This document shows positions 11,139 to 28,458 of a DNA stretch of 64,000 bases, piece by piece. Under the pieces are notes generated by a model, which worked only from the letters and a program-made list of their open reading frames with translations, made no database searches and had not been told where the DNA came from. The stretch spans positions 124,001 to 188,000 of the forward strand of contig JAIQFV010000005.1 in NCBI GenBank assembly GCA_020073085.1, read 5' to 3'. A program made the translations under genes and the position numbers. Position 1 is the first letter of the stretch. Each line of letters starts with the position of its first letter. The DNA is from Terriglobia bacterium. GTDB taxonomy: Bacteria > Acidobacteriota > Terriglobia > JAIQFV01.

Positions 11139-11740
11139 TGTTGTCAGACTTCTATTCTGGGGTTGGAGCCAGAGGGTAGCGGAGTCGCGGCACTAATATT
11201 TACTTTGAATTTTTCACTCCAAAATTTACCCCACCTAAAGATCCCAAAGGTTTGACCAAGAAAAGGCATCACGGCCCGTCCTTGAAGTTTGTAAGAGCAG
11301 GTGTTTCATGGGGGGGGCGTACCGGTGCAGTTCGAGCTTTCAAAGCATTTCTTCTGGTTCGTGCATTTGAAGGGATAGGACTGCCTCGTGAATCGCCATC
11401 TGGAAGAGCAAGAGCTGACGGACAAGTCTGTGTTTTGGTTCTGACCCACTCGTCCCCCGTGCCAGAGATCTATCGATTATCGTGAATTAGAATTTCGGCA
11501 TGTGAAAGCATTAAGGCTGTTTTTGCACCCTGTTCCTCGGTTCACCGGCCCCTAATTTAACCCTAAGTAAGGACATCAAGAATATGTTGCGATCCCCATT
11601 CCGTATTCTCATCTCTTCCATCGGATGGCCTTCCAACCAACAAACAAAGTATAGCGCCCTCTTCCGAGCGTCGCCTTCCCACGGAAATCGGTATCTACGC
11701 GAAGAAAGATAACACGTGGGTCGAGGTTCAGCCCGAGGTA

Positions 11741-12157
11741 GTGAACTGGAAGACGGGGGGAGTGCTCAAGATGGTCGCCACAGCAGGCATCGTCAAACCC
11801 GATGTGAACGGCCGCATCAACGGTCCGCGCAGCCGCAACCAGATCAAACCACCGCTGGATTTCCTCATCATTGCCCCGGAAGGTGTGGCGATTACCGAAT
11901 ACCAGTTCCTGCATCTGCGTGAGCAGAAGGACGCCCGGGAATTTCGGACGGTCACTGGAGGAGTGTTTCACGCCTCCGGTGGGGCGACGCGTGATTTGGT
12001 GGCGTTTGAAGGAAAAAAAATCGCTTCCCGAGTGTTCACGGTGACCTTTGCGGCCCTGGCTCCGGGAGAGTACGGTTTTCTCCCTCCAGGCTCTTTTACT
12101 CAATCGAACGCTTCAGCCCAGCTGGGGAAGATGTATACCTTTCACTTAGCAGAGTAG
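11741..12157 (+). CDS. Conserved exported-type protein of unknown function, 5' end uncertain
   Basis: The listed GTG at 11741 is only the first standard start in frame. Coding sequence clearly extends upstream (RRLPTEIGIYAKKDNTWVEV, then VVNWKTGG), and the frame stays open further left without any ATG, GTG or TTG. In the neighbouring frame an ATG at 11584 with an AAGGA about ten bases before it opens a short hydrophobic start that stops at 11712. A single-base indel between about 11630 and 11660 would join the two. The protein has conserved blocks (FRTVTGGVFHASGGATRD, APGEYGFLPPG) and resembles small Acidobacteriota proteins of unknown function. Either it is a frameshifted pseudogene or its start is unusual. 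The large exported protease-like gene begins 27 bases downstream. Confidence 0.6.
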   Translation: MNWKTGGVLKMVATAGIVKPDVNGRINGPRSRNQIKPPLDFLIIAPEGVAITEYQFLHLREQKDAREFRTVTGGVFHASGGATRDLVAFEGKKIASRVFTVTFAALAPGEYGFLPPGSFTQSNASAQLGKMYTFHLAE

Positions 12158-12184
12158 ATTTCTGCTCACAATGAAGGAGAGGCG

Positions 12185-15100
12185 ATGTTCCCTCTTTACA
12201 GATTGATCAGTATTGTTTCGATTGTTCTAAGCCTCCTAGTTATGGGGGGATTCAGCGAGTCGCTACTGGCGAATGATCATATTCACTCAATTTCAAGCCA
12301 CAGCGATTGGATTGAAGGTTTTACATTAATTATCATGGACCACAATGACGTGGCCGCAGCAAACCAGGCTCGTGATTATGTCATACGCCAAGGTGGGAGA
12401 ATCGCCATTCTCATTCCTCCGCATGCTATGTTGGGTTGGGTCCCTCCTGAAGTAGCGAATAAGCTGGTTGGTGAACATGGCATTGAATCCGTCTCCCGAA
12501 GTCCAGTAGCCTTATCCAACCTCAAACACAATGACGATCAGACTCTGGCCGCTGTTTCTTTTTTCAATTATGTCTCATCTGGTTCACTGATCCGCGAAAT
12601 GGTGCTTTCTAAAGAAATGAAAGGTGCGCCGTTAGTTGGAGATACGTTAGAACATCGTAAATTAAGTTACCGCAATTTTGAAGAAAATCTCCGGAAAACG
12701 GGATCAGTGTTATCTCCGGAAAAATTCCCGTTATTACAAGAAAACAGTGTGACGATGACGGGGAGTGTTTCTGTGACATTATTCTTTGTTGAAAGCAATG
12801 GGGCTCATGATGAGGACAAATATACTTGGTCTGATAGTGATGAGCAGAATGCCTACAATCGAGCTCTTGCTGGACTGGCATGGTGGTCAAGTAAAGCCTC
12901 GGCTTATGGGGCGAGTGTCAGCTTCACGCCGTCTATATACAATCATGCCAGCTCAGTGACGCAGCAAGGGTACGAACCCATTCTTCACCCGCATACTGAT
13001 GATTACCTGTGGATCAATGCAATAATGGCCAACTTAGGATTTACGGAGGGCGATAACGGCGACAGGGTCACGGCTTTCAATGCATCTAGGCGGTTGGCGT
13101 ATGGAACAGATTGGGCTTACTCCGTGTTTATAGCTTACAATCCGAGCGGTTTTTTTAGTAGTGCTCCGACTACGTTCGCTGACCCGACAGGTGATTGGTT
13201 TGCATACGCCTACCAAGGTGGCCCTTATGTTCAAATGCTGTTTAGAAACGATGGCTGGAGTGAGAATAACATCGGTCTCGTCCTGACACATGAAACCGGC
13301 CATATCTTTTGGGCCTGCGATGAATACTGCCAGCCAGGCCATGGCTGCTGCGGTTCCTGTGGTGCGTGCGCATCCTCAGGTCCAAGGCCGACTGTTAATA
13401 ACGGAAATTGCCAGGCATGCAACGCAAGTTGGGTTCCCTGCATGATGCACATCAACGAAGACGCGCTGTGTGAATTTACCGCTCTACAAATTGGGTGGAC
13501 AGGCATTGGCAGGGGAGCTCCCGATCCCGGGATTTTCATAGAGGCCGCCAATAGGGAGAACAATAAATTCTTTCAAAACGTTTTGTTTCCGCCCATTAAC
13601 AACGTTCATCGTTGGGATTGCTTAACCTGCGACCCTGGGAACGCGAACTGGGGGAAAGGTTTGATTCAGGATTTCAATGGCAAGGACGCGGGCGTTCACG
13701 ATGCTCTCATGGTTCCAGATAGTAGCGATTTCGTCGCAGTGATTTACGGCGGCATGTGGTCGAAGTTTATTCAGATGAACGGAATTAATTTTAATGGCAA
13801 CTTTATTCTTGGCTACCCAATTGCCGATCGTAACTGCTCAGACAAGGATGCTACCTGTTTTTCAGATTCCCAGCTAGCCTCCTATTATGGGACATCCTAT
13901 CACTATCAGAGATTCCAGGGGGGTGCGCTTGTTCTCCACAAATCTGGGCTCAATTTGGACAAGACGTATGAAGTTCATGGGGCAATTCGGTCAAAGTGGC
14001 AATCGTTAAGCGGTCCTGATGGAAGTCTTGGTCTCCCTGTCAGTGATGAGTACGCATGGCAGGGCAATAAAAGGAGGAGTGACTTCGAGGGGGGAACTAT
14101 ATGCTTTGACCCCGCAACAAATCAAACATTGGTAGGATGCGATTTGGATGCCAATGGTCCGAGTGCGAGCATTACTAGTCCCAGCAACGGACAGACGGTG
14201 ACCGTCAGCCCATTTACTGTTTATGGTACGGCCTCCGACGCTGGTCATGGGGACAATGGCATTTCGTCGGTGAGCGTGAATGGTTTTCGCGCCAGCAACG
14301 ATACCGCAAATGGCTCGGCAACGGCCAACTGGAGTCTTGCGGTCGCGCTGAATCAAGGATCAAACCCCATCACGGTCATCGCAAAAGACAACAGCAGCAA
14401 TCAGAATGCTACTTCCCTCTCTATCACAGTCAATTACCAGCCATCGTCAATGCCGGCGCCAACACTGGTTTCACCGGCCAACGGAGCGACCGGAGTCCCG
14501 GTGGCGACGACATTAAATTGGAACGCGGTCACCGGCAGCGCTGGCTACCAAGTATATTTGGGAACGACGAATCCGCCCCCTTTTCTCACTTTAACGACGA
14601 GTTCTCCTTTCACTCCAACATTGAACCCAACTACAACTTATTACTGGAAGATCGCGAGCCGCGACCCCAACAATGGCAATGCTGAGTCTCCTTCTCCGAT
14701 CTGGTACTTCACCACAGGGGCGCCGGTAACTTACACCATTTCCGGAGTGGTTACGCTTTCCGGCACGGGGCTGGGCGGCGTGACGGTTAATCTGAGTGGG
14801 ACGCAGAGCAACTCTGCCATTACAAATGGCTCGGGAGAGTATAGCTTCAGTGGACTTGGAGGCGGGGGCAACTATACGATCACTCCGTCACTCAGTGGGT
14901 ACAATTTTAATCCCTCGAGCCTTCCATTTAACAGCCTGGCCAGTAATCAGACAGCCAACTTCACCGCGACTCCCACATCTTGGGTGCTTCAACGCAGTGG
15001 AACCGAGAATATCTTGAGCGTTTACTTTGTCAACGCAAACGACGGATGGGCTGTTGGAGGGTCAGGAACCATTCTTCATACGTCGAATGGAGGTACGTCG

Positions 15101-18100
15101 TGGCAATCGCAAACCGGTCCGTCGTCAAATTACCACTATTATTCAGTTTATTTTGCAGATGCCAACAATGGCTGGGCAGCAGGAACTGCAGGTGGAGGAG
15201 TGATCATTCATACTAGCAATGGCGGAGCGACCTGGTCAGTGCAGTATGACGGCGGAGGCGACGGCAATACTCGTTTGTGGTGGGTCACTGGTGTAGATGC
15301 GAATCACCTTTGGGCCGCATCGAGCAGTGGGTTGCTGTTTTCAACAAGTAGCGGCACAAGCTGGCAACTTAAAGCAATGGACCCCCTATGGAAGGTAAGA
15401 TTCGTAAGCACAAATACGGGGTGGGCTACAAAAATAGGCGGAGCACTAATTCGTACAACCAATGGGGGAGATACCTGGGAAACGAGATACAGTCCCTCTG
15501 GGGGTGGGAATATCCTCGATCTGAGTGTTTCAGATGCCAATGTCTGGGCACTTGGGACACTCCCATATTTCAAGATTGCCCACTCTTCGGACTCCGGCTT
15601 GACCTGGAACTTACAGGATGCAGGTACGACGAATGTTATTCGCAGTGTGAACTTCATTGATGCATTCAATGGTTGGGCAGTCGGCGACGGGGGCACGATC
15701 CTTAGTACAAATAACGGCGGGGAGGCCTGGTCTGTTACCACTATTTCTGAGGTATACAACCTCTGGGATGTGGCCTGTAACCCTGGGGGCGCCTGGGTTG
15801 TCGGAAGGAATGGAACCATTCTTAAGTACACAGGTTCTATGCCAACGAATGCAGACTTCACCCTTTCAGCGAACCCGTCGTCAATTGACGTTAACCAAGG
15901 TGGGAGTGGGGCTAGTACGGTCACAGTCTCCTCCAAGGTCAAATTCAATAGCACAGTAAACCTAAGTTGTTTCAATCCGCCGGCAGGAGTGACGTGCGAC
16001 TTTAATTCCAGTCAGGTGATTCCTCCGCCCAATGGTTTTGTTGACAGCGTACTGACAGTCAGCGTTGCTTCCGGCACTTCCGCGGAAACTTATAACCTGC
16101 AGGTGCAAGGCACAAGCGGCGGCCTGACCCATACTGCCGACATTGCCCTAAAGGTGAATGTTCCAGCGCCCATTACGCACACGCTCACCGTAGCATCCTC
16201 CAATCCCAGCAGTGGAGTCTCGATCACCGTGTCTCCTAACGACAACAACAACCAGGGAAGCGGCTCAACCCCGTTCATACGGACATACAATAACAACACC
16301 AGCGTGACTTTGACCGCGCCCTTGACGGTTGGTGGAAACCACTTCCACTTATGGCAGCGCAATGGGGTGGACGATACCCCATTTGCCCAAACCAATATAA
16401 TAATGGACGCCGACTATACGATGACGGCCGTGTATTTGACACCAAGCCTGAATCCCCACTTCGTTCTCACTAGCGTGAATACTCCGATTCGCCAGCACGG
16501 ACAGACGGAAGTGGTGGGCGACGTTATCCTGACCTGCGATGTGGCGGGAACATTTCCAACCTCCTCAGGATTTACCGTAACTTACTCGCCGGTCTTTGGC
16601 ATTGTAAATTCTAACAGTGGCGTATTCACCTTCGCGAGTGGAGTGGCATCAAATGCTCGTGTGGCCCATGTCGAGAGTGAGCCTGCGACGACAGGGATTG
16701 CAATCGGCTCCGCCATTTGGACGCCGGGCTCAAACAACATCATCACGGTCAGCATCAGCGGAGTGGCTGCAGTTGGTGATGTCATTCGCATTTCGGCAAT
16801 TCGGGTAAATGCGGGCGAGTCCAATCTGGTCCCAGCTATGTTGGTCACTGGCACCGTCGCTGCGGTTCCTCCCGGGGCTTTTCTAGTCGACAGTAACACC
16901 ACCGCGAGCGTGGCTAATGTCCAGAATGAAGTTCAGGTGGCTGTGACTTCGACGGCGATTCAGGCATGCGGTACATCGTGTGGCACTGGGACGATCCGGG
17001 TGGCAGAGCGGTTCCCATCGGCCTTAACCACAGTTACCGAAGAAAATGATATCCTGCACAGGCCTAGCGCCCCCTTTACGAAAGCGGCATCGTCAGGAAG
17101 CACACTCCTCATTACCATCGCCAATGTCCCCCCGGGCGTAAGGGTGTCTTGGCCAGGGAATCTGACGGGCTCCGATTCTTTAACTTCGACCCTGATGGAT
17201 CCCGCTACCACGAGCTTTACCAATACGTCACTCACAGCCTTTGCCAGCGTCCCTATCACCTACGTCGTAACAGGGGACAGCCCGACGCTGGGCGAGTTTA
17301 TAGACATTCCGATAACGCTATGTCCTACGGTTTTTATTCCGGCACCGCCAATACTGGGAACTGGGACGGCTCAGGTTAAACTAGGCCCAAACGCGGGCAC
17401 TGGCTTCAGTGGGGAGCAACCCTCGTCGAAAATTGTTAGCTTCGTGCCCAATCCAGTGAATGTTCCCCCTGACTCGATTGGAGTCTTGCAGGCCTGCACA
17501 AACAATCCTGCCGTAATGACTAACCCTCAATCAGGCTCAACATTCACCAGCTCCAACCTCACCTTCACATGGAGCGAGGGCAGTGGCGCGACCGAGTACT
17601 ACTTGCAGGTGGGAACGACCCTGGGAGGGCAAGAGCTGTACAGTTTGAGCGAAGGGACCAACCTGTCGGCCACGGTGATGGCGCTGCCGACCGACGGCAG
17701 CACGGTGTACGTGCGGCTGTGGTCGAAGATTGGGGGGCTGTGGTCCTACAACGACTATACCTACATTTCCTGCACCGGCTGTACGGCGACCAAGGCGGTG
17801 ATGACGACGCCGGCGCTTGGGTCGACGCTGAGTTCTTCAATGACGACCTTTTGGTGGAGCGCGAGTCTAGGGAGCGAGTGTTATCTGCAGGTGGGCACGA
17901 CCGTGGGCGGGCAGGAGCTTTACAGCGCCGGGCAGGGAACGAATCTTTCGGTGCAAGTCCCCACGCTGCCGACCGACGGGAGCCCGGTGTACGCACGGCT
18001 GTGGACCAACATCGGCGGGGTGTGGTTGTACAACGATTATACCTACATGGCGTGCAGCGGCTGCACCGCCACCAAGGCGGTGATGACGAGTCCACTCTCA

Positions 18101-18916
18101 GGGTCGGCCCTGACCGCCTCGTCGGTGACCTTCACGTGGAGCGGGAGCCTCGCTTCGCAATCCTACCTACAGGTGGGGACAGTGCCGGGAGGGCAGCAGA
18201 TTTACAGTGCGGGGCAGGGGACTAACCTGTCGACCCAGGTGACGGGGCTGCCCATCGGCGGGGGCAACGTGTATGCGCGACTGTGGTCGGAGTTGGGGGG
18301 GATGTGGTGGTACAGCGACTACAGTTACTTGGCGTGCAGTGGGTGTACCCCGACGCAGGCAGCGATGACCACCCCCGCGCCGGAATCGACCTTAAGCTCC
18401 ACGATGGTGACCTTCACGTGGGGCACGAGCCTGGCGTCGGAGTGCTACCTGCAGGTGGGAACCACAGCGGGAGGGCAGGAAATTTATAGTGCCGGGGAGG
18501 GGACGAACCTGTCTTCACAGGTAATGGGCCTGCCGAATAACGGGGGTTCGGTATATGTGCGGCTGTGGTCGAAGATCGGCGGTGCCTGGCTGTTCAACGA
18601 CTACAACTACACGGCGTGCACAGGATGTACGGCGACGAAGGCCGTGATGGTGACGCCCGCCGCGGGATCGACGTTGAGTTCGCGGGCGGTGACGTTCACC
18701 TGGAGTGCGAGCTTGGCGGCGGGGTACTACTTGTTTGTGGGGACGTCGGCCGGCGGGCAGGAGATCTACAGCGCGGGGCAGGGGACGAACCTGTCGGTGG
18801 GAGTGATCGGTTTCCCGAATAACGGCAGCGCGGTGCATGTGCGGCTGTGGTCAAGGATCGGGGGAGCATGGCTGTTTAATGATTACACCTACACGGCCTG
18901 CACGGGATGCCAGTAG
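12185..18916 (+). CDS. Giant exported metzincin-like metalloprotease with LGFP, Ig, YCF48-like and C-terminal repeat modules
   Basis: A 2,243-residue protein with ribosome site GAAGGAGAGG and an N-terminal signal segment. Around residue 369 is HETGHIFWACDEY, a zinc-protease HExxH motif with Asp at the third-ligand position, followed by a Cys-rich loop and PCMMH, which could be the metzincin Met-turn. LGFP-like repeats follow (GAIRSKWQSLSGPDGSLGLP). Then come a bacterial Ig-like domain, an FN3-like domain, a carboxypeptidase-regulatory-like domain (YTISGVVTLSG) and YCF48/BNR-type propeller repeats (NDGWAVGGSGTILHTSNGG). More Ig and InlB-B-like modules precede five 94-95 residue C-terminal repeats ending in a CxGC pair. 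The last 1.4 kb is shared with the gene ending at 24150. Likely function: surface or secreted protease with many binding modules. The substrate is unknown. Confidence 0.85.
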   Translation: MFPLYRLISIVSIVLSLLVMGGFSESLLANDHIHSISSHSDWIEGFTLIIMDHNDVAAANQARDYVIRQGGRIAILIPPHAMLGWVPPEVANKLVGEHGIESVSRSPVALSNLKHNDDQTLAAVSFFNYVSSGSLIREMVLSKEMKGAPLVGDTLEHRKLSYRNFEENLRKTGSVLSPEKFPLLQENSVTMTGSVSVTLFFVESNGAHDEDKYTWSDSDEQNAYNRALAGLAWWSSKASAYGASVSFTPSIYNHASSVTQQGYEPILHPHTDDYLWINAIMANLGFTEGDNGDRVTAFNASRRLAYGTDWAYSVFIAYNPSGFFSSAPTTFADPTGDWFAYAYQGGPYVQMLFRNDGWSENNIGLVLTHETGHIFWACDEYCQPGHGCCGSCGACASSGPRPTVNNGNCQACNASWVPCMMHINEDALCEFTALQIGWTGIGRGAPDPGIFIEAANRENNKFFQNVLFPPINNVHRWDCLTCDPGNANWGKGLIQDFNGKDAGVHDALMVPDSSDFVAVIYGGMWSKFIQMNGINFNGNFILGYPIADRNCSDKDATCFSDSQLASYYGTSYHYQRFQGGALVLHKSGLNLDKTYEVHGAIRSKWQSLSGPDGSLGLPVSDEYAWQGNKRRSDFEGGTICFDPATNQTLVGCDLDANGPSASITSPSNGQTVTVSPFTVYGTASDAGHGDNGISSVSVNGFRASNDTANGSATANWSLAVALNQGSNPITVIAKDNSSNQNATSLSITVNYQPSSMPAPTLVSPANGATGVPVATTLNWNAVTGSAGYQVYLGTTNPPPFLTLTTSSPFTPTLNPTTTYYWKIASRDPNNGNAESPSPIWYFTTGAPVTYTISGVVTLSGTGLGGVTVNLSGTQSNSAITNGSGEYSFSGLGGGGNYTITPSLSGYNFNPSSLPFNSLASNQTANFTATPTSWVLQRSGTENILSVYFVNANDGWAVGGSGTILHTSNGGTSWQSQTGPSSNYHYYSVYFADANNGWAAGTAGGGVIIHTSNGGATWSVQYDGGGDGNTRLWWVTGVDANHLWAASSSGLLFSTSSGTSWQLKAMDPLWKVRFVSTNTGWATKIGGALIRTTNGGDTWETRYSPSGGGNILDLSVSDANVWALGTLPYFKIAHSSDSGLTWNLQDAGTTNVIRSVNFIDAFNGWAVGDGGTILSTNNGGEAWSVTTISEVYNLWDVACNPGGAWVVGRNGTILKYTGSMPTNADFTLSANPSSIDVNQGGSGASTVTVSSKVKFNSTVNLSCFNPPAGVTCDFNSSQVIPPPNGFVDSVLTVSVASGTSAETYNLQVQGTSGGLTHTADIALKVNVPAPITHTLTVASSNPSSGVSITVSPNDNNNQGSGSTPFIRTYNNNTSVTLTAPLTVGGNHFHLWQRNGVDDTPFAQTNIIMDADYTMTAVYLTPSLNPHFVLTSVNTPIRQHGQTEVVGDVILTCDVAGTFPTSSGFTVTYSPVFGIVNSNSGVFTFASGVASNARVAHVESEPATTGIAIGSAIWTPGSNNIITVSISGVAAVGDVIRISAIRVNAGESNLVPAMLVTGTVAAVPPGAFLVDSNTTASVANVQNEVQVAVTSTAIQACGTSCGTGTIRVAERFPSALTTVTEENDILHRPSAPFTKAASSGSTLLITIANVPPGVRVSWPGNLTGSDSLTSTLMDPATTSFTNTSLTAFASVPITYVVTGDSPTLGEFIDIPITLCPTVFIPAPPILGTGTAQVKLGPNAGTGFSGEQPSSKIVSFVPNPVNVPPDSIGVLQACTNNPAVMTNPQSGSTFTSSNLTFTWSEGSGATEYYLQVGTTLGGQELYSLSEGTNLSATVMALPTDGSTVYVRLWSKIGGLWSYNDYTYISCTGCTATKAVMTTPALGSTLSSSMTTFWWSASLGSECYLQVGTTVGGQELYSAGQGTNLSVQVPTLPTDGSPVYARLWTNIGGVWLYNDYTYMACSGCTATKAVMTSPLSGSALTASSVTFTWSGSLASQSYLQVGTVPGGQQIYSAGQGTNLSTQVTGLPIGGGNVYARLWSELGGMWWYSDYSYLACSGCTPTQAAMTTPAPESTLSSTMVTFTWGTSLASECYLQVGTTAGGQEIYSAGEGTNLSSQVMGLPNNGGSVYVRLWSKIGGAWLFNDYNYTACTGCTATKAVMVTPAAGSTLSSRAVTFTWSASLAAGYYLFVGTSAGGQEIYSAGQGTNLSVGVIGFPNNGSAVHVRLWSRIGGAWLFNDYTYTACTGCQ
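17510..18916 (+). repeat. C-terminal module array, copy 1 (five units of 282-285 bp)
   Basis: Units begin at 17510, 17795, 18077, 18359 and 18641. The whole block aligns without any gap to 22744-24150 (constant offset 5,234), with only scattered substitutions and long identical stretches, for example around 18320-18440. Confidence 0.9.
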
Positions 18917-19388
18917 AAACTTATCTGTTTGGTCTCGTCAGTCTGTTTCGTTGTTTGCTCGGTCGAGAACGATCAGCTGTCAGCCATTAGCGGGCTTTAG
19001 GAGGCTTCGGGAAATTAAAGGTTTGAAAGTTTAAAGTGAATTCCAGGCTCGGGCGAATGGTTGTTCCACTGTCAGGCATTGTTCGCCATACAAGGATCTT
19101 CGGACAACGCAGAACCCTTGGGTCTGGAGATCGTAACTTTCTCTTTCGGCAAATAGTTCTAGCCGCGTTCCGGGTCCAACGGTCCCTGACTTACCGATTA
19201 GAGACTATACCCGGCATCCCACTTTGATCAGTATCAACTGAGGTAAGACACAACCTTCTGGAGGTCAATCTTCTATTCATCGAAATCCCTCTGTTTTGCT
19301 ATTCAAGTAAACAATTGGAAGAGTAGTGAAATAAATCATCAATGAGCTCTCCATCGCCGACTTGGGTGAAAAAAAGAAGGAGGAGTCA
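18917..19388. other. Intergenic region
   Basis: About 470 bases between the giant protein and the next secreted protein. The first bases after the stop (TGTTTGGTCTCGTCAGTCTG) resemble the GTC-rich sequence after the second array at 24151. No gene or clear terminator is visible. Confidence 0.45.
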
Positions 19389-20069
19389 ATGAACAAAATC
19401 CGGCTAATGACATTAGGCCCAGTTATGTTTTTCGCGATCATCTTGAGCAGCCTGACGTTGGCAGCGAACGATCCGCCTAATGATGTTGTGAATGCTGCAG
19501 AATCAGGGATTAGGGATTTGATCAAGAGTGGAGTGTTTCACGACTTAGATCTATTGGGATTTCCTGGTCAGCATGAAATTGACGATGCAGCTCTGGGGGA
19601 AGGCTTTCAAATATTCACCGTGGGCACCGCTGTGCTCGTAGGAGATACCGCAACAAGTGATCTGTCAACAAACGCTTATCCTTTGGAGTTGTGGCAGTTT
19701 CTCGTCATGTCAAGGAGTGAAGCAAGATGCATACTGACAGTTGGTCGGGTCAAGGGCAAGTGGACGGCTGTTTCCATAGGAGCCACCGGACTTGCTATGA
19801 GACTCAGCGGAGCCATGAAGGCTTGGCCTAGATCACTGGGTTATCAATATCGATTTATTCGATTGTACCAAGCGAGCTCGGATTTTCTGGAGTTGAGCGG
19901 AACGGCGGCTGTTATTGGTTTCCTTCCCCTGGCTTCGGCCCGAGAGGCATTGAATTTGAAGAGTAGGGATTTCGACGTGCACGACATCCGTAGTTCATGG
20001 GACATTCTCAATGAAATTCGGCCCGTAGTGAAAGCCAATCTTCAAAAGGGCGAGGGCGAGAAGAGATAA
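19389..20069 (+). CDS. Exported protein of unknown function
   Basis: A 226-residue protein. ATG 19389 is chosen over 19362 because GAAGGAGGAG lies directly upstream and because it starts a clean signal peptide (IRLMTLGPVMFFAIILSSLTLAA). I do not recognise the mature domain. It contains a strand-rich middle (AVLVGDTATSD, CILTVGRVKGKWTAVSIG) and few Cys. It lies 56 bases before the papain-like protease gene on the same strand, with no terminator between, so the two probably form an operon. A role as chaperone, inhibitor or partner of that protease is possible but inferred from position only. Confidence 0.75.
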   Translation: MNKIRLMTLGPVMFFAIILSSLTLAANDPPNDVVNAAESGIRDLIKSGVFHDLDLLGFPGQHEIDDAALGEGFQIFTVGTAVLVGDTATSDLSTNAYPLELWQFLVMSRSEARCILTVGRVKGKWTAVSIGATGLAMRLSGAMKAWPRSLGYQYRFIRLYQASSDFLELSGTAAVIGFLPLASAREALNLKSRDFDVHDIRSSWDILNEIRPVVKANLQKGEGEKR

Positions 20070-20124
20070 ACCGGCCGAAGGATGCGACTCAGTGAATATT
20101 AATGTGTTCGTGGAGGCTAAAGAG

Positions 20125-23100
20125 ATGAAACCTGAAGCGTGGGCGTTTTCACGTATCGGCATCGTCATAGGAATTTTCCTTTTACTTGTGCTTATTGATT
20201 CTTGTTTTGGCCAAACCACTCTAACTCTAAATGTTTTGAGCAATACTCAGGAACATAGCGAATGGTGTTGGGCTGCATCGAGCAAGGCAGTCCTCGACTA
20301 TTACAGTCACCCCCAATCTCAATGTTCGATCGCAAACTGGGCATGGAATAGGAGCGATTGTTGTGGGAATGAGGAGTTCGTTTGGGATCATCCATGCAAC
20401 AAGCCGATTTACACATTTGGCACGCCTAGTGTTCAGGCCATTTTGTCGAACTGGGGTGTCAACAGTAGTGCATCAAGTAGCGCACTTTCACCCGATGCCA
20501 GTGTTGCTGAGATCAATGCCGGGAGACCCTTTGTAATTAGGTGGGCACTAAAGAGCTGCAACTTAGATTGCGGTCACTTTGTGGTAGGGATGGGCTGTGA
20601 TCTCGATCTGAGCAAGGCCCTTTGGATAAGCTACCAGGATCCCGCGCCAGGAATTGGATACCAGAAGCATTTATACTCTGCGGTTGTCGACGATGTCCAA
20701 CACACATGGACACACAGTCTCCAAATCACTGTCCCCGCTGGAGTTTTAGGGGACACCTATGAAAATCCATATATCATCCCTGCTGGACCCTTTCCTGTGG
20801 TCATGGGGGGGACAACAGCAGGTTTTAACAATGACCTGGCAAAAGCTCCAAGTTGCCTAAGTGGCATTGACACTTGTGGTCCCGATGTTTTCTTCAGCTT
20901 TACGGCTCCCGCTTCGGGTGACTACATTGTCTGGATCCAAGGCAATGACTGGTCATGGCCCGCCCATACATGGGTGTCTGCCGCACTTGGAGCATGCGGC
21001 TGTGCGTCGCCTCAGTCGAGTGCCCAAGGCCCAGGGGTCAATTACTATCCGATCTCAGCGATTGCCGGTACAAATTACAGAATCGTCCTTGGCGGCCAGG
21101 GGGTCCAGGAAACTGGACACTGCAGCGCGGGGACATACACGCTAGAAGTGGGTCCTTGCTCTGATCTTCACACGCCAGGCGGTCTTGCAGCCTCGGCTAT
21201 CAGTTCTACGTCAGCAAAGATGAATTGGGATGTGGCTCGACAACCCCCAGGAACTAATACGGCATTAAAGAGATACCTCCCTGGAGATACTGAGGGAGCG
21301 ATAGTATTTTCCGGTCCCGACGGGGGAGACTTCCTCGATACGGGTCTTACCCCGGGGACGACTTACTCGTATCGAGTCGCTGCTGCCCATTCATACTGCG
21401 TTCCTTTTCCGCCGCTATCAAACCCCGTTTATGTGACACTCCCCTCTTCGTACATACTTACCGTGGCTAAGGCAGGCACGGGAACTGGAGCAGTGACGAG
21501 CAATCCTCATGGGATTGATTGTGGTGCGGGATGTTCCAGTGAATTTGGTTCAGGTACTCAGGTGATCCTATCCGCACAACCAGTGGCTGGTTCCAACTTT
21601 GTAGGATGGAGCGGCGAAGGCTGCAGCGGCACGGAGTCATGTGTCGTGACGATGTCACAAGCGCGCACCGTGACTGCGACGTTCGACTTGGTTCAGCCGA
21701 ACCCGACGTTGACTGTGACCAAAAGTGGGCTGGGTATAGGCACGGTGACCAGCAATCCATCAGGAGTCAGTTGTGGATCGACCTGTTCAGCTTCGTTCCC
21801 CAATGGAACGCAAGTCAGGCTAACTCCGACCCCTCAATTTGGTTCGACTTTTGGTGGATGGAGCGGGGGTGGATGTTCAGGTACCGGACAATGTGTGGTC
21901 GGGATGAGCACTGACCAGAGCGTCCAGGTCATCTTTAATCTAATTCCCCAACCGCAGACCGGCAAGATCGTTTACATCAAAGGTGGAAATGTATGGATCA
22001 TGAACACTGATGGCACCTCGCAGACACAATTGACAAGCGGAGGTGGCGCGACGATTCCCCGGCTTGCGAACGGGGTAGTTGTGTTCCAAGAAGGGGGCCA
22101 ACTTCGTAAGACTGATGCTGCCGGAACCAGTCCGAGTCCTATTCTAAATACAGTGGGTGTCCTGGAGTACGACCTCGATCCCGCAGGTCAAAGAATAGTC
22201 ATGACCTATAATGGCATGGCCGGCTCCAATTACAGAAACTTCATCCTGTACACGATGAACTTGGATGGCTCAGGAAAAGTAGCCATCAACACGACAAGCA
22301 ACATGCATCAGTTCTGCCTTTACTGGGGCCGTGATGGATATATTTATCTGGACCAGACGATTGTTGGCGACCCTTACAAGCAAAAGGTCTTTCGTATTCC
22401 TGAGGGAGGAGTAGACAATCCGACCTTGCTGGTCAACTACTTTAGCCAGTACGCCGCTGAGGGTGGACTTTCTGGTAAGGTGGCATTTCTCTATAATCAA
22501 CCCGCGCCCAAACTGGGGATGATAAATAGCGATGGATCAGGGCAGATTGATGTGGCGAACTCCCCAGCCGGTATTTTGGGTAGGATTGCCTACGATTATG
22601 ATCAGGAGACCATCTATTTCCGCTATAACAACCAGATTTGGAGAATCAATCCCGATGGGACTGGTTTGCGGATGCTAGTTTCGAGTTTGGCTGGTACGGA
22701 TTACGATCTCGATTACGGCACGGTTGCGAAGTCATCCGGCATAGCCGCCATGACAATTCCTCCGCCGGGATCGACGCTCACCTCCTCGACGGTGACCTTC
22801 GCATGGAGCGCGGGGTCAGGGGTCTCCGAGTACTACTTGCAGGTGGGCACCACGCCGGGAGGACAGGAGCGATACAGTGTGAGCGAAGGCCTGAACCTGT
22901 CGGCCACGGTGATGGGGCTGCCGACCGACGGCAGCACGGTGTACGTGCGGCTGTGGTCGAAGATTGGGGGGCTGTGGTCCTACAATGACTACACCTATGT
23001 GTCCTGCACGGGCTGCACCACCACCAAAGCGGAGATGACGACGCCCACGCCGGAAGCGACCTTGTCCTCCTCCATGACGACCTTCTGGTGGAACGCGAGT

Positions 23101-24150
23101 TTGGGGAGCGAGTGTTATCTGCAGGTGGGGACGACCATGGGCGGGCAGGAGATCTACAGTGCAGGGCAGGGGACGAATCTTTCGGTGCAAGTGCCAGCCC
23201 TGCCTACCGACGGGAGCCTGGTGTACGCGCGGCTGTGGACCAACATCGGAGGGGTGTGGTTGTACAACGATTACACTTACACGGCGTGCAGCGGCTGCAC
23301 CGCGACCAAGGCGGTGATGACGAGCCCAGCGACAGGATCGACTCTGAACTCGTCGTCGGTGACCTTCACGTGGAGCAACAGTCTGGCCTCGCAGTACTAC
23401 CTGCAGGTGGGGACAGTGCCGGGCGGGCAGCAGATTTACAGTGCGGGACAAGGGACTAACCTGTCGACCCAGGTGACGGGGCTGCCCATCGGCGGGGACA
23501 ACGTGTATGTGCGACTATGGTCGGAGTTGGGGGGGATGTGGTGGTACAGCGACTACAGTTACTTGGCGTGCAGTGGGTGTACCCCGACGCAGGCAGCGAT
23601 GACCACCCCCGCGCCGGGATCGACCTTAAGCTCCACGATGGTGACCTTCACGTGGGGCACGAGCCTGGCGTCGGAGTGCTACCTGCAGGTGGGAACCACA
23701 GCGGGAGGGCAGGAAATTTACAGTGCGGGGGAGGGAACGAACCTGTCTTCACAGGTGATGGATCTGCCAAATAACGGGGGTGCCGTGTATGTGCGGTTGT
23801 GGTCGAAGATCGGAGGAGCGTGGCTGTTCAACGACTACACTTACACGGCGTGCACGGGATGTACAGCCACGAAGGCCGCGATGGTGACGCCTGCCTCGGG
23901 GTCAACGTTGAGTTCGCGGGCGGTGACCTTCACATGGAGCGCGGGGCTGTCGGTGGAGTACTACTTGTTTGTGGGGACGTCGGCCGGCGGGCAGGAGATT
24001 TACAGCGCGGGGCAAGGGACGAACCTGTCGGTGGAATTGAGCGGGATACCGAATAACGGCAGCACAGTGCGTGTGCGGCTGTGGTCAAGGATCGGGGGAG
24101 CATGGCTGTTTAATGATTACACCTACACGGCCTGCACGGGATGTCAGTAA
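20125..24150 (+). CDS. Large exported papain-like cysteine protease with propeller and C-terminal repeat modules
   Basis: About 1,341 residues from ATG 20125, which has GGAGG nine bases upstream; GTG 20092 is the alternative. A signal peptide is followed by a papain-like (C39/AvrRpt2-type) domain. Candidate catalytic residues are C48 in EWCWAASSKA, H151 in DCGHFVVGMG and D172 in YQDPAPG. Next come a PPC-like domain, an FN3 domain and two InlB-B/Cys-paired repeats (VGWSGEGCSGTESCVV; GGWSGGGCSGTGQCVV). A TolB-like beta propeller (GKIVYIKGGNVWIMNTDG) precedes five 94-residue repeats nearly identical to those of the gene ending at 18916. It is probably a secreted or surface cysteine protease; all three catalytic residues are visible. 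The shared C-terminus suggests that both proteases use the same anchoring or export route. Confidence 0.85.
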   Translation: MKPEAWAFSRIGIVIGIFLLLVLIDSCFGQTTLTLNVLSNTQEHSEWCWAASSKAVLDYYSHPQSQCSIANWAWNRSDCCGNEEFVWDHPCNKPIYTFGTPSVQAILSNWGVNSSASSSALSPDASVAEINAGRPFVIRWALKSCNLDCGHFVVGMGCDLDLSKALWISYQDPAPGIGYQKHLYSAVVDDVQHTWTHSLQITVPAGVLGDTYENPYIIPAGPFPVVMGGTTAGFNNDLAKAPSCLSGIDTCGPDVFFSFTAPASGDYIVWIQGNDWSWPAHTWVSAALGACGCASPQSSAQGPGVNYYPISAIAGTNYRIVLGGQGVQETGHCSAGTYTLEVGPCSDLHTPGGLAASAISSTSAKMNWDVARQPPGTNTALKRYLPGDTEGAIVFSGPDGGDFLDTGLTPGTTYSYRVAAAHSYCVPFPPLSNPVYVTLPSSYILTVAKAGTGTGAVTSNPHGIDCGAGCSSEFGSGTQVILSAQPVAGSNFVGWSGEGCSGTESCVVTMSQARTVTATFDLVQPNPTLTVTKSGLGIGTVTSNPSGVSCGSTCSASFPNGTQVRLTPTPQFGSTFGGWSGGGCSGTGQCVVGMSTDQSVQVIFNLIPQPQTGKIVYIKGGNVWIMNTDGTSQTQLTSGGGATIPRLANGVVVFQEGGQLRKTDAAGTSPSPILNTVGVLEYDLDPAGQRIVMTYNGMAGSNYRNFILYTMNLDGSGKVAINTTSNMHQFCLYWGRDGYIYLDQTIVGDPYKQKVFRIPEGGVDNPTLLVNYFSQYAAEGGLSGKVAFLYNQPAPKLGMINSDGSGQIDVANSPAGILGRIAYDYDQETIYFRYNNQIWRINPDGTGLRMLVSSLAGTDYDLDYGTVAKSSGIAAMTIPPPGSTLTSSTVTFAWSAGSGVSEYYLQVGTTPGGQERYSVSEGLNLSATVMGLPTDGSTVYVRLWSKIGGLWSYNDYTYVSCTGCTTTKAEMTTPTPEATLSSSMTTFWWNASLGSECYLQVGTTMGGQEIYSAGQGTNLSVQVPALPTDGSLVYARLWTNIGGVWLYNDYTYTACSGCTATKAVMTSPATGSTLNSSSVTFTWSNSLASQYYLQVGTVPGGQQIYSAGQGTNLSTQVTGLPIGGDNVYVRLWSELGGMWWYSDYSYLACSGCTPTQAAMTTPAPGSTLSSTMVTFTWGTSLASECYLQVGTTAGGQEIYSAGEGTNLSSQVMDLPNNGGAVYVRLWSKIGGAWLFNDYTYTACTGCTATKAAMVTPASGSTLSSRAVTFTWSAGLSVEYYLFVGTSAGGQEIYSAGQGTNLSVELSGIPNNGSTVRVRLWSRIGGAWLFNDYTYTACTGCQ
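22744..24150 (+). repeat. C-terminal module array, copy 2 (five units of 282-285 bp)
   Basis: Gap-free partner of 17510-18916. Both end in the same codons (CTGCQ then stop). Stretches near 23503-23690 match copy 1 almost base for base, which suggests gene conversion. Confidence 0.9.
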
Positions 24151-24485
24151 AGGACAGTCTGTCCGGTCAATTCGGTCTGTTCAGTCTTTTCGGTCACTTC
24201 GGCCAAAGGTCCGCGATGCTGGCGAACCGAACACTTCGTGCATTTTGTGCGGAGGGGTCTGTCTGGCTTCTTTAGTGTTGGAAACGGGTCAAGCACTGAC
24301 ATTTACTTTAGCTAGCCACCGCAGATAGTGGCTTGTCATCGTAGTATGAGTATTCCGGTAGCGCCCCCCCCCGCGGAATGGACTTGCAGCTAATGCTCGA
24401 TCATCATACGGGAGATATCTGGGCCGGTCTCCCGATGAATTCGATTCCCGTGTTGATGAAACATTTGGGAGAGCTAAGGAGTAGC
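24151..24485. other. Intergenic region with GTC-rich short repeats
   Basis: The first 60 bases are a run of degenerate short repeats (GGTCAATTCGGTCTGTTCAG, CTTTTCGGTCACTTCGG). No terminator or gene was recognised in the rest. An AAGGAG lies just before the lipoprotein start. Confidence 0.45.
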
Positions 24486-24992
24486 ATGATCGTGCTGCGC
24501 ACAATGCCGGTGACGTTACTTTTAATGATGGTCCTCTGTTCATGCTCGGACGCACCCAAACCGTCCGAGCCAATGACTCCACCTGCCGCCCACCTCGTCA
24601 CCTCAGAGGGGACACCTGTCTCAGGTGCCCCCGAACCAGAGGTGGTGCAGTTAGAGAAGATCGAGACAACTGGCACAGAAAAGCGCGTAACCGTAGGAAA
24701 CGTAGCCGGAGAGTATGTTTTGGTTTGTAATGAGGATGCCAACAATGAGGAACATGGCATACGTAGTTGTCTCTCGCCGCGTCCGCAACAAGACTATTTG
24801 CTATTTCGAGCAAACACAAGATGGCTCATCAATGGCGCGAAAGAGCCTGTGAATCTCAAATTCATGCAAGATTGGTCGGTGGCATACAACCGCGGGGAAA
24901 ACATCGGACTTTTGCCTGCAAAAAAGTCTGATGCCGAACAATTTGGCGTCTACTGGCTAATGTCGTGGACGGGGAAAAACCCTGCTCATTGA
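24486..24992 (+). CDS. Small predicted lipoprotein of unknown function
   Basis: A 168-residue protein from ATG 24486, with TAAGGAG four bases upstream. An in-frame ATG at 24378 is less likely because it places the signal peptide internally. The N-terminus (VTLLLMMVLCSCSDAPKPSEP) is a lipoprotein signal with a plausible lipobox Cys, followed by a Pro/Ser-rich linker. The mature domain is short, with one Cys pair and strand-rich segments (VTVGNVAGEYVLVCNEDAN). I do not recognise it. It overlaps the Rep-like remnant by 28 bases, which suggests that the downstream sequence was joined here secondarily. Confidence 0.65.
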   Translation: MIVLRTMPVTLLLMMVLCSCSDAPKPSEPMTPPAAHLVTSEGTPVSGAPEPEVVQLEKIETTGTEKRVTVGNVAGEYVLVCNEDANNEEHGIRSCLSPRPQQDYLLFRANTRWLINGAKEPVNLKFMQDWSVAYNRGENIGLLPAKKSDAEQFGVYWLMSWTGKNPAH

Positions 24993-25552
24993 GGGACGAC
25001 ATCCCGGCACCCCGCCACGATCAAGCTCTTCATGGACCTTCCCCTCAGCAGTCCATCGAAGAAACCTTCTCAAAACAGATTCTCCTCCTCTGGCAATCGG
25101 CTTGTGTAAGTGCGGGATTCCCCAGGCCGAATGAGCATGGTGTGGATCTTCGCAATGGAGAGCTTGCGGCTGGTTACGCCAGCAAGTGGGGGTTAGAATG
25201 TGTATTGACTAAGTCACACATCAAGAAGGGAAAGGAAGAACACAGAAGCCCGTGGGACTTGCTGAGGGACTTCGCCGAGACGGGGGATTCTGACTTTGCC
25301 GACTGGTTCAAGGCGTACGCATCAGCTTTCAAGGGAAAGCATCAGCTCTGTTGGAGTAAAGGGCTTCCCGAGGAGCTGGGGATGGGGAAAGAGAAAAGCG
25401 ATCAAGAACTTGTGGACGAGTTAAGGGAAGAAGCGGTTCTGTTGGGTACGCTGAGCCCTTCGGAATGGGCATTGTACTCAAGGCAGAGGCGCGGGCAGAC
25501 GTTCTTAAGGCTGCTGAGGTCTCTGGATGGGCAGGAGTGCAGGAACTTCTAA
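24965..25552 (+). pseudogene. C-terminal remnant of a plasmid-type replication protein (Rep)
   Basis: The 195-residue frame contains the conserved C-terminal half of the family annotated as 'protein rep': HGVDLRNGELAAGYASKWGLE, LTKSHIKKGK, SPWDLLRDFAETGD, AFKGKHQLCWSKGL and the acidic tail SDQELVDELREEAVLLGTL. These proteins initiate replication of small plasmids. The N-terminal catalytic half (HUH-type motifs) is absent, and the first 40 residues look unrelated. The GTG at 24965 overlaps the lipoprotein gene and has no ribosome site. I read this as a truncated, non-functional fragment marking past integration of a plasmid-like replicon. The family call is from memory of its signature; a profile search would settle it. 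Confidence 0.65.
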
Positions 25553-25687
25553 TACGGCTTCAAAGGATTCGGGCAGATGTTGTGGAGTCGGTGGGAGATA
25601 GACACCAAACATGAGGAGAAGGATGAGCGAGACTAATGCCAGATTTAAGTAGTGGGCCAAGAACAGGTGGATTTATAATGGCTGTCT

Positions 25688-26545
25688 ATGTCAAAAGAAA
25701 CACTGGGGATTTTTCTTGCAATAATAGGTCTTGCAGTCGCATTTGTTCTATATTTGATTGACAAGTCTGGAAAGAGCACCCCGGTTATCACGGTTATTCT
25801 ATTGCTGATTACCGCAGGACTTTTCATTTGGGCTATATTGATATTGCCCTGGGTATGGACGCCGCAGTCCAGCGTGCTAAGAATTTGGAGAGTATCAGCG
25901 GTATCGTGTGTTGTGCTTCTATTGGTGGTTCGTTTCGCAATATGGATCTGGCCCCCCAGAGCGCACCCCATCTTGGATACTGAGGAACGGTCATCAAATG
26001 AGCACCAGAAACCAAGTGAGCCTGTCACTGCTTTCTCCCCAAAGGATGAGCGGCAGCTTCCTAAATCCCTCCAGATAGATGTGAAATTGCGGTTTGTGTA
26101 CCCGAAAGAGCCAGCTTTAGTGATCACAAATCCGTGTGGCGCGGCTGCCAAAAATATAAAATGGACAGTCGCGCTATGGAACATGGATCTGCCCGACCGA
26201 AACGATCCATTGCCGATCCCAGTCTCCATATTTGATTGGATAAAACCGCACGAAGAAGGAGGCCCACAAAACCTCTTTAGTAGCCCTCTTGTAGCCCCAC
26301 TATTGAAACCGGGCAATCGGTTGTTTGGGTCAGCGTCAGTAGATTGCCCCGAATGCGTTAGGGGGAGGACGTATGTTGTCTATATCGTTCTGGGCAGCGG
26401 AGGTTGGTTCTCAGAAATGGAGACCGAAAAATCAGGCGACATTCTTATCCCCAAGAATTTTTTGAAGGAGTCAAGAGAAGAATATTTCAAATCACTCGAA
26501 GCCGCAGTCCCGGTGGCCTCGCGGCTCCCCATTGCTGAGAAATGA
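25688..26545 (+). CDS. Membrane protein of unknown function
   Basis: A 285-residue protein. Three hydrophobic helices lie in the first 90 residues (LGIFLAIIGLAVAFVLYLI, VITVILLLITAGLFIWAILI, VSCVVLLLVVRFAIWIW). A soluble region of about 190 residues follows, with an Ig-like or beta-rich character (IDVKLRFVYPKEPALVITNP, ECVRGRTYVVYIVLG). No catalytic motif was recognised. Codon use and lower GC differ from the core genes, consistent with accessory DNA. There is no strong ribosome site before 25688. It sits between the Rep remnant and another unknown gene, and probably forms part of the same acquired segment. Confidence 0.65.
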   Translation: MSKETLGIFLAIIGLAVAFVLYLIDKSGKSTPVITVILLLITAGLFIWAILILPWVWTPQSSVLRIWRVSAVSCVVLLLVVRFAIWIWPPRAHPILDTEERSSNEHQKPSEPVTAFSPKDERQLPKSLQIDVKLRFVYPKEPALVITNPCGAAAKNIKWTVALWNMDLPDRNDPLPIPVSIFDWIKPHEEGGPQNLFSSPLVAPLLKPGNRLFGSASVDCPECVRGRTYVVYIVLGSGGWFSEMETEKSGDILIPKNFLKESREEYFKSLEAAVPVASRLPIAEK

Positions 26546-26861
26546 TGACATTTTTCGAATCTTTTCCTGATTTCAATTCATAATTATTCAGGAGAAGGAA
26601 TTTTGAAGCTGCGACTCGAAGCAAAGACAGATGTCAAAATGAAAGGCCTGGACGTGGGACATTTTTTAGCCTCCCCCTCGAAATGAAAATTGAAAAGATC
26701 TCGCCCCAAGCTTATACTCTAAATTGATGGGCCAGCTGGCCTTCTTGTTTGAGTGTCGAGTTTAACTGGGTTGATTAGGCCGCCGTGATTGTGGGGTCTT
26801 CTTGTAAGCCTAGGCCTAGTACGATTAATCCTATGGTAGGTGCCCTGGGTTTGGAGGCATG
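26546..26861. other. Intergenic region with a strong promoter
   Basis: About 315 AT-rich bases. It contains a sigma-70-like promoter (26690-26718) and, just after it, the 12-bp palindrome GGCCAGCTGGCC (26731-26742). No gene was seen. Confidence 0.5.
26690..26718 (+). promoter_or_regulatory. Sigma-70-type promoter
   Basis: TTGAAA (26690-26695), 17-base spacer, TATACT (26713-26718): each hexamer matches consensus at five of six positions. It drives the gene at 26862 with a leader of about 135 nt, which includes the GGCCAGCTGGCC palindrome. Confidence 0.6.
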
Positions 26862-28259
26862 ATGGAACTGGACTTACCCCCTGTAGCGGTTCTCGCTGCC
26901 AGTGAGAAGCTCTGGGTCGCAGAGTCGGTAGCTGACCTCAAATCCCACTTGGAGCGGTCTGGGCTAAAGAAGGAACTCCTGCGTCAAGCCGGCTGGACAC
27001 TGGACAGCTATAATTACGTGTCCCCCGCCGCGTCTGGCTTTGTCACATCGCCTGCTGGTTCTCTGAATCCATTCTCACCGGCCTTCAAGTGTTCAAACCT
27101 CGAATGTCGGCTGCGATCCGCTGACGATTTCGTCAAGACTGTGGCGCTGTATGTCGATCACTTGGTGGTGCCCGATCCACTAACGGGCGCGTTCGCCCAA
27201 GACGAAGTTGACTACGACAACTTGTTCTCGTTATTGGCGGTATATCGATACGTCCTACCACTAATACGCGAAGGCCTACTTAGCTTTGCTCGCCCTGTGA
27301 GGCACTACTGCAAAGAGTGCGCTGAACGTGTTGATGGGAAGGCGGGCGTGGCCGCTGAGCGCATCCTCGCAGAAACCACGGCCGACCTGAGGATTGAATT
27401 CTGGACGCCGGAGATCCTAGCGGTTCGCTGCCCCGCACTGTTCGCAGACCCCCAGCACCCTTTGACATGGGCGTTTCCTTTGTCCAAGGAGGATGCGGCG
27501 CGATTCGCAGCCCAATCAGGCGGCCTTAGTAGGCAACGTCTCCTCGAATTCGTTATGCCCCTGCTCGCGCGGAGGTTGAAGTCCGTAGCTTTGACCGCCT
27601 TGTTAGAAATGTCCACAGCACAGGACGTCCACGCAACAGTCTTAGCCAGTGCACGTGCTGAGTTGCTTTGTTTTGCCGAAACGGACGGTGTGCGACCGTC
27701 CATGGTCGGGCTCGAACAATGGGAGGACCTCCGATCTATCGACCTGCCTTGGATTCATGAATTGACTCCAGCTGAGTGCTTGGTGCTCCGAAGGGAGGCC
27801 AAGACGGCGTTGCCGAGGCTGAGGGCACTGTTGGCCGCGGCGTTCGACAAGGACAATGGCGCACCACGAAACATCGAAACAGTCCTGACTGATTTGAGGG
27901 CTCAGGTGGCAGAAGTCGAAGCTGAGATCCGAACGGTGGAAAAGCTGGGTGAAGGACGCTACAAGGTGGCGGTCGAGGGTCTAGGGCTTGCGTTCGTGCT
28001 GTATGGGCTCTCAACAGGTATTCCGGCTATTGCAGGTGCTGGGTTGGCCGGCCTCATGGCGGCGTTGGCTCACACCCAGAAGGGCGAGCGCGAGACCGTC
28101 AGTAAAAAGCTCAAGATTGAATCAGCCCCGGCGTTCGCGCTCGTCACGGCGAAGCAAATCCTCGGAAGACGTTTGGCCGGCGAGGCGCCTAACCAGCGCC
28201 TGAAGCCGACGCCCACGAAGTCTAGGCGGACGCAGCCGCGCATTAGACGTGGACGTTAG
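26862..28259 (+). CDS. Unknown soluble protein with C-terminal hydrophobic segment and attC-like tail
   Basis: About 465 residues. I prefer the second of two adjacent ATGs (26862) because GGAGG is four bases before it but only one base before the first. No family was recognised. A CxxC-type pair lies in the middle (HYCKECAERVDG). Predicted helices dominate, with a short coiled stretch (TDLRAQVAEVEAEIRTVEKLG) and then a Gly/Ala-rich hydrophobic segment (LAFVLYGLSTGIPAIAGAGLAGLMAAL). The last 25 residues (starting PNQRLKPTPTK) are encoded by a sequence resembling an integron attC site, and the stop codon lies inside its right core. Such tails occur on many unrelated environmental proteins, so the tail is probably not functional protein. 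Confidence 0.7.
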   Translation: MELDLPPVAVLAASEKLWVAESVADLKSHLERSGLKKELLRQAGWTLDSYNYVSPAASGFVTSPAGSLNPFSPAFKCSNLECRLRSADDFVKTVALYVDHLVVPDPLTGAFAQDEVDYDNLFSLLAVYRYVLPLIREGLLSFARPVRHYCKECAERVDGKAGVAAERILAETTADLRIEFWTPEILAVRCPALFADPQHPLTWAFPLSKEDAARFAAQSGGLSRQRLLEFVMPLLARRLKSVALTALLEMSTAQDVHATVLASARAELLCFAETDGVRPSMVGLEQWEDLRSIDLPWIHELTPAECLVLRREAKTALPRLRALLAAAFDKDNGAPRNIETVLTDLRAQVAEVEAEIRTVEKLGEGRYKVAVEGLGLAFVLYGLSTGIPAIAGAGLAGLMAALAHTQKGERETVSKKLKIESAPAFALVTAKQILGRRLAGEAPNQRLKPTPTKSRRTQPRIRRGR

Positions 28260-28261
28260 GT
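28187..28261. other. attC-like sequence at the gene's 3' end
   Basis: GCCTAAC (28187-28193) matches the attC R'' core RYYYAAC, and GTTAGGT (28255-28261) matches the R' core GTTRRRY. They are 75 bp apart end to end, within the attC size range. The inner L boxes pair poorly, so it may be a decayed or unrelated element. No integrase gene is in the window. Confidence 0.35.
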
Positions 28262-28458
28262 CGGATTCGTGGAGCTTGGAAAGATTGAGCACTTGCAAAC
28301 ACCAAGAAATTCGGTATATTGATGAGCATGAAGATGTGCAACAGACTGGTTATTGCCGATGCCAAACGGGTGCTTCTCTTGGTCAATTCTGTTGTACATT
28401 CGTTGCTTGTCAATGACGCATAATTGCTAACTAATTCTGAATAAACAGAGTATCGAGA

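Follow-up and report, generated by a model that had tools for sequence, protein, structure and literature searches.

Here, we describe a 64,000-nucleotide window of a Terriglobia bacterium genome (contig JAIQFV010000005.1) in which two genes for unrelated exported proteases, a metallopeptidase at 12185-18916 (2243 aa) and a papain-like cysteine protease at 20092-24150 (1352 aa), both terminate in the same array of five repeat units; features are on the forward strand, and coordinates are positions in this window unless a contig label is given. These observations are best explained, probably although not certainly, by a five-domain fibronectin type III (Fn3)-like cassette that forms the C-terminal end of exported proteins, unrelated in their other parts, within one acidobacterial genus, was duplicated as a block, in some copies together with its 3' flank, and would have been joined to different N-terminal parts, including foreign protease cores fused to the resident tail. 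Copies would then have swapped short tracts by gene conversion. The five domains of the tail would line up as a rod, each with a CxGC cysteine pair behind its last strand, and the tail may be a common delivery or retention module that brings varied exoproteins across the outer surface or holds them there; both enzymes would presumably be degradative soil exoproteases. What is new here is the block-wise, five-position cassette with CxGC junctions, its spread to non-enzymes, its local conversion and its fusion to foreign-looking cores.

The two arrays, at 17498-18910 (array 1) and 22732-24144 (array 2), were delimited by repeat finding, alignment and predicted fold. Each consists of five copies with a period of exactly 282 nt, the first unit having 95 residues and the others 94, and a CxGC pair closes all ten units: 17498-17782, 17783-18064, 18065-18346, 18347-18628 and 18629-18910 in array 1, and 22732-23016, 23017-23298, 23299-23580, 23581-23862 and 23863-24144 in array 2, whose protein ends CTGCQ. 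Unit ends were set by the CxGC pattern, and since neighbouring ends always lie 94 residues apart, none was skipped inside an array. The blocks 17510-18916 and 22744-24150 align without a gap at a constant offset of 5,234 and are 88.2% identical over 1407 nt (mismatches at about 166 of the 1407 positions, or about 12%), the longest exact runs being 102, 100 and 72 nt, and identity in the flanks is at chance level (22% across the 300 nt upstream and 27% across the 300 nt downstream). The original prediction had described a gap-free shared C-terminal repeat of five 94-95-residue units with long identical stretches, a closing CxGC pair and unrelated upstream parts; all of this is borne out, and its array coordinates were correct to within a few residues, the starts now being set at 17498 and 22732. 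Its description of the two proteins holds as well: both look exported, with Sec-type N-termini by eye, and both catalytic types are upheld, the HExxH metzincin-like type by an invariant motif and predicted fold and the papain-like cysteine type by C39 and C70 profiles.

In principle, one array could have been copied from the other during assembly, by mis-joining or consensus blending, given that the genome is a draft of multiple contigs, that other arrays have contig ends inside or close to them (the left end of contig C3, contigs of a same-genus genome), a sign that arrays do hamper assembly, and that a patch of 98-99% identity might represent blended reads. We consider such an artefact extremely unlikely: the arrays are about 12% divergent with a ratio of non-synonymous to synonymous change (dN/dS) of 0.22, their longest exact run is 102 nt, and the independently assembled same-genus genome, hereafter the sister genome and itself a draft assembly, carries this cassette on different proteins and reproduces the positional grouping of units described below.

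A search of the whole host genome (5.79 Mb, 68 contigs, 98.7% complete) for the same C-terminus, which had been proposed as a check on the prediction, revealed six arrays, the two in the window and four others. Two belong to tandemly encoded propeller proteins of the delta-60 type (DUF5122) on contig C3, one is a fragment at the left edge of that contig, and one, of four units, ends a short protein encoded just past the right end of the window (C5:190429-191676). The suggested duplication or domain capture is therefore upheld and is wider than a two-gene event, the block having been copied across at least six arrays. In the sister genome, arrays occur on a protein with FG-GAP and Big_3_5 domains, on an FG-GAP/He_PIG protein and on two He_PIG proteins truncated at contig ends, and an apparent orthologue of the short array protein lies in similar surroundings. 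Both species also have array genes at a locus before AmrS-like and glmS genes (L007 3-11117 and L023 3-2075), where the N-terminal parts and the array types differ between species (five versus four units). The last unit of the array at L007 3-1424, beyond which about 115 residues follow, is the only one of 48 units without CxGC.

To ask what was copied is to ask how the units are related. In a tree of 47 units from several proteins and both species, units group by position across proteins and species, with starred clades for units 1, 2, 4 and 5; the unit 3 group has support of 87/73 and lies inside a starred clade shared with unit 2 of the short protein. Unit 3 of the metallopeptidase, for instance, is less close to the units beside it than to its counterpart, the third unit, in a propeller protein or in proteins of the sister species. 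Since units group by position, the five-unit block is the thing that was copied, and we have shown that the cassette was duplicated as a block. For the same reason, array-wide concerted evolution was rejected, as units cluster by position and not by array. In some copies the 3' flank was duplicated along with the block: the papain-like array (pap) and one of the two C3 propeller arrays (d60a and d60b) share homology past the stop codon in the form of a 64 bp 3' tail (24151-24214; BLAST match of L007 5031-6487, d60a, to window 22758-24214) with a degenerate 9-bp repeat, GTCTRTTCR. A shared terminator was considered as the common 3' feature and discarded, as a consensus scan performed no better than shuffles; the shared tail is the 9-bp repeat. 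Tandem copies of this repeat, (GTCTRTTCR)n, gave 66 overlapping pattern matches in the genome versus 0 for the reversed control, on contigs C1, C3, C5 and C8 (in the window at 24175-24192), often 4-25 bp past a stop codon and often in inverted pairs with the potential to fold into long hairpins.

Synonymous and non-synonymous change were compared unit by unit, as had also been suggested. Between the metallopeptidase array (metz) and pap, synonymous divergence (dS) is 0.54, 0.52, 0.24, 0.22 and 0.23 for units 1 to 5, with dN/dS 0.22 overall; across arrays dN/dS ranges from 0.14 to 0.26, and units are free of indels. For comparison, dS is 0.58 between species for the four-unit array of the short protein. 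In permutation tests on the ten pairs of five full arrays, two pairs showed a tract of excess identity at third codon positions, each with p 0.0005, which is the floor of the test and is uncorrected for the ten pairs: metz and pap at array nt 789-984 in units 3-4, and d60a and d60b at array nt 408-573 in unit 2. No significant third-position tract was found in the other pairs. In the window the first tract corresponds to 18286-18481, with a run of 39 polymorphic third positions identical to array 2, and its partner in array 2 to 23520-23715. Uneven selective constraint along one old duplication, with no conversion, is a very unlikely source of these patches; protein constraint is indeed strong (dN/dS about 0.2), yet the patches are significant at third codon positions, they differ in place from pair to pair, and other pairs have no patch at the same place. 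Local gene conversion between paralogues is supported as the best reading of the tracts, with blending of near-identical reads in assembly as a possible alternative source. The original prediction of ongoing gene conversion thus stands in part, with two significant patches in its favor, but conversion is local and not array-wide, and that it is ongoing is not demonstrable.

Each unit is predicted to fold as a seven-stranded Fn3-like beta-sandwich. A two-unit AlphaFold2 model built on a 63-row alignment has a predicted local distance difference test score (pLDDT) of 95.3 and seven strands per unit, and a Foldseek search with the unit model gave a best E of 2e-6, with mostly Fn3 proteins among the top 50. 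VIA-align of the unit model reached Z 9.9 over 170 residues with a root-mean-square deviation (rmsd) of 9.1 in a two-domain alignment, and Z 9.3 with rmsd 2.7 over 84 residues for the single domain 8cka. None of 23 units matched the Pfam fn3 family (PF00041) at E up to 1, the only Pfam matches being weak, sub-cut-off ones to ORF_2_N and Big_7; as the sandwich is predicted but PF00041 is not matched, we call the units Fn3-like. Searches of Pfam, NCBIfam and PDB sequences with the unit returned no family, and a search of the literature for this repeat found no description. In the model, CxGC sits at the junction between domains, directly behind the last strand, and the pair is likely an oxidised disulfide that would stiffen or cap the linker. 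Units 2 and 4 each contain one additional Cys in a fixed place. Residues that are invariant at a given position are kept across paralogues and species, for example seven in unit 2 and five in unit 3.

Ahead of its array, the metallopeptidase contains a signal peptide, a prodomain, the catalytic core, LGFP and Ig-like regions and a Ycf48-like propeller; in Pfam searches LGFP, Glucodextran_B and PSII_BNR scored over cut-off and CarboxypepD_reg below it, and no family was found over the core. The prodomain and core (residues 30-446; 12272-13522) were characterized by a 19-row alignment, AlphaFold2 and VIA-align. The core contains the motif HExxHxxxAxDEY at 13289-13327 and a Met-turn, CxM, and H340, E341, H344, D350 and M392, plus the E and Y of the motif, are invariant in 19 of 19 rows. 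It therefore has the hallmarks of a metzincin, namely HExxH, a third ligand position six residues past the second His and a Met-turn, with Asp in place of the classical His; from this pattern, Asp is the likely third zinc ligand. An Asp third ligand, in HExxHxxxAxD, is also a feature of snapalysin. The fold of the core is predicted to be that of a metzincin: the model (pLDDT 84) aligned by VIA-align with fragilysin (8h3y) at Z 11.7 and rmsd 3.8 over 211 residues, and with a consistent metzincin set of fragilysin, snake-venom metalloproteases, ADAM and ADAMTS at Z 9.8-11.7. Foldseek alone gave no match to the core model at E<0.001, so that the fold was recovered only in the second look by VIA-align; the N-terminal part has a weak Foldseek likeness to a subtilisin-type propeptide (E 0.05). 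Like fragilysin, ADAM and snake-venom metalloproteases, which also have a prodomain, the protein combines the predicted fold with HExxH and a Met-turn, but it differs from them in its likely Asp third ligand and in matching no Pfam model.

The papain-like protease is a composite of a C39/C70 core, an fn3-like region, two InlB B-type repeats, TolB-like repeats and the array. Its core (20206-20760) matches Peptidase_C39_2 (PF13529, 29.4 bits, cut-off 24) and Peptidase_C70 (PF12385, 27.3 bits, cut-off 19) over cut-off; the protein also has a Flg_new_2 match, and the TolB-like repeats were recognized by eye. The candidate nucleophile is the Cys of EHSEWCW at about 20266, which together with the His of CGHFVVG and a QDP motif, all picked out by eye, may make up a Cys-His-Asn/Asp triad, with similar residues in homologues. 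It resembles AvrRpt2-like C70 and C39-like papain-fold peptidases in scoring over cut-off with both Pfam models, and differs from them in its extension by InlB-type, TolB-like and Fn3-like modules.

Both cores appear to be strangers to the genus: they occur in other acidobacterial families, and a search of the sister genome found neither. Among 396 sampled Acidobacteriota genomes, relatives of the metzincin-like core occur in 29 other genomes, all labelled as the same phylum and not the same class, with up to 63% identity over part of the core; in each of the eight homologues that were read through, likeness to the window protein is lost at around residue 440 and a different tail follows (by eye, resembling PKD, He_PIG, calcium-repeat or propeller modules). 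The papain-like core has relatives in seven other sampled genomes, and the three homologues that were read through are differently built and have no array. The N-terminal parts of the two genes have a GC content at third codon positions (GC3) of 0.53 and 0.51, against 0.81 for both arrays and 0.66-0.74 for ordinary neighbours; by codon likelihood the cores score negative and the arrays resemble native genes, a pattern consistent with a chimera. Because of this phyletic pattern, the differing tails elsewhere and the codon usage, we infer that the protease cores probably came from other acidobacteria and were joined here to a resident tail. As an observation in its own right, the metzincin-like core with HExxHxxxAxDEY (homologues L093-L111) constitutes a phylum-wide family with varied C-terminal tails and no Pfam model.

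Left neighbours of the proteases are syntenic with the sister genome up to window position 11534, after which the sister has a different metallopeptidase, weakly M6-like and without an array. Synteny resumes at 28447, 12 bp before a tRNA-Gly gene, with the two sides on different sister contigs, such that a gap is possible. The intervening 11535-28446, about 17 kb before tRNA-Gly(CCC), has no counterpart on the two flanking sister contigs; parts of it have a low GC3, and several of its open reading frames (ORFs) match nothing in Pfam. We also weighed a prophage or integrase-driven island and do not claim one, as no integrase family was found among the tested ORFs of the block; an Rfam search of the window found only a tRNA. 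Viral contigs gave no relative and plasmids no match, so that nothing points to carriage by a phage or plasmid.

What might the tail do? The invariant positions of the array, the purifying selection on it and its recurrence on exported proteins of unrelated kinds speak for a shared task. We tentatively favor delivery or retention as the most likely job, with the type II secretion system (T2SS) as a candidate route because GspG, which scores over its family cut-off in both genomes of the genus, is encoded. As a precedent, though not as evidence here, the Fn3 domain of Pel3/PelI carries T2SS secretion determinants in its loops, and Fn3 modules occur in carbohydrate-active enzymes (PMC7949064). 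It is rather unlikely that the array is a passive, rigid stalk or spacer, keeping catalytic or sensor heads apart or off the cell with no specific partner. Such a role fits the predicted tandem Fn3 fold, the variable unit count (four or five here, 1-8 in distant relatives) and the absence of CxGC from relatives outside the genus, but position-specific invariant residues and the lack of indels at dS above 0.5 go beyond the apparent need of a plain spacer, and in 11 complete proteins of the wider superfamily at most one residue separates the last unit from the protein end. Doubtful, too, is binding to an extracellular target, be it a polysaccharide, the matrix or a surface partner, which would gather varied proteins in one place; position-specific conservation is in its favor, as is the fact that many bacterial Fn3 tails sit on enzymes acting on insoluble substrates, yet Pfam searches gave no match to a carbohydrate-binding family. 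Delivery or retention might be taken further, with the cassette as a dedicated new C-terminal sorting or attachment module read as a unit by envelope machinery (candidate T2SS), its CxGC pairs forming redox-controlled links between domains or molecules and letting the cell deploy newly acquired exoenzymes; this is improbable.

Several points weigh against our overall explanation. Fn3 arrays can be plain spacers. Sister contigs break off at the locus, so the absence of both protease genes rests on a draft assembly. Array GC3, at 0.81, exceeds that of ordinary genes and is not merely native, for which GC-biased conversion is a possible reason. Finally, about 115 residues lie beyond the array at the edge of contig C3, and the tail is consequently not strictly terminal.

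That Fn3 modules are shuffled among bacterial exoenzymes has long been known. The array resembles the Fn3 modules of chitinases, cellulases such as CbhA and pectate lyases (Pel3/PelI) in its predicted fold and its unrelated secreted catalytic partners, and the Fn3-like modules of CbhA (3pdd) are among the structural matches of the unit. It differs from them in lacking a PF00041 match, in its strict 94-residue period and fixed five-position order, in the CxGC that ends nearly every unit, and in the presence of the block on non-enzymes as well. The C-terminal domain of type IX secretion system substrates and PEP-CTERM are conserved C-terminal delivery domains, and they too provide one C-terminal module common to otherwise unrelated exported proteins. 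The likeness comes from C-terminal position and sharing alone, whereas the array comprises about 470 residues in five domains rather than one short domain, and no such family was matched. The locus offers a clear natural example from bacteria in which enzyme cores, probably recent acquisitions, have been attached to a multi-domain tail that is resident and ordered by position, and in which conversion maintains local similarity among the copies; it also draws attention to a metzincin-like family that has no Pfam entry. If the tail is a delivery or attachment module, it would open a way into the exoproteome of this soil lineage, and its sequence would serve as a tag for finding substrates.

Only seven of the 396 genomes in the phylum sample, the host included, match the unit at E<=1e-6. 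Diverged units that lack CxGC are present in other Acidobacteriota, in a Geobacter metagenome-assembled genome (MAG), and in one Dehalococcoidia and one Rokubacteria MAG. Across the wider superfamily, the last unit lies within one residue of the C-terminus in 11 complete proteins, and a few proteins have internal copies; unit number is 1-8 in distant relatives and four or five here. The C-terminal habit therefore reaches past the genus, and CxGC and the fixed five-unit order are seen in the genus only. Distant unit relatives tail a peptidase-like protein of another acidobacterium (L080 4030-4596), and those in Geobacter (L036 2716-6273) tail a protein that, by eye, resembles a multicopper oxidase.

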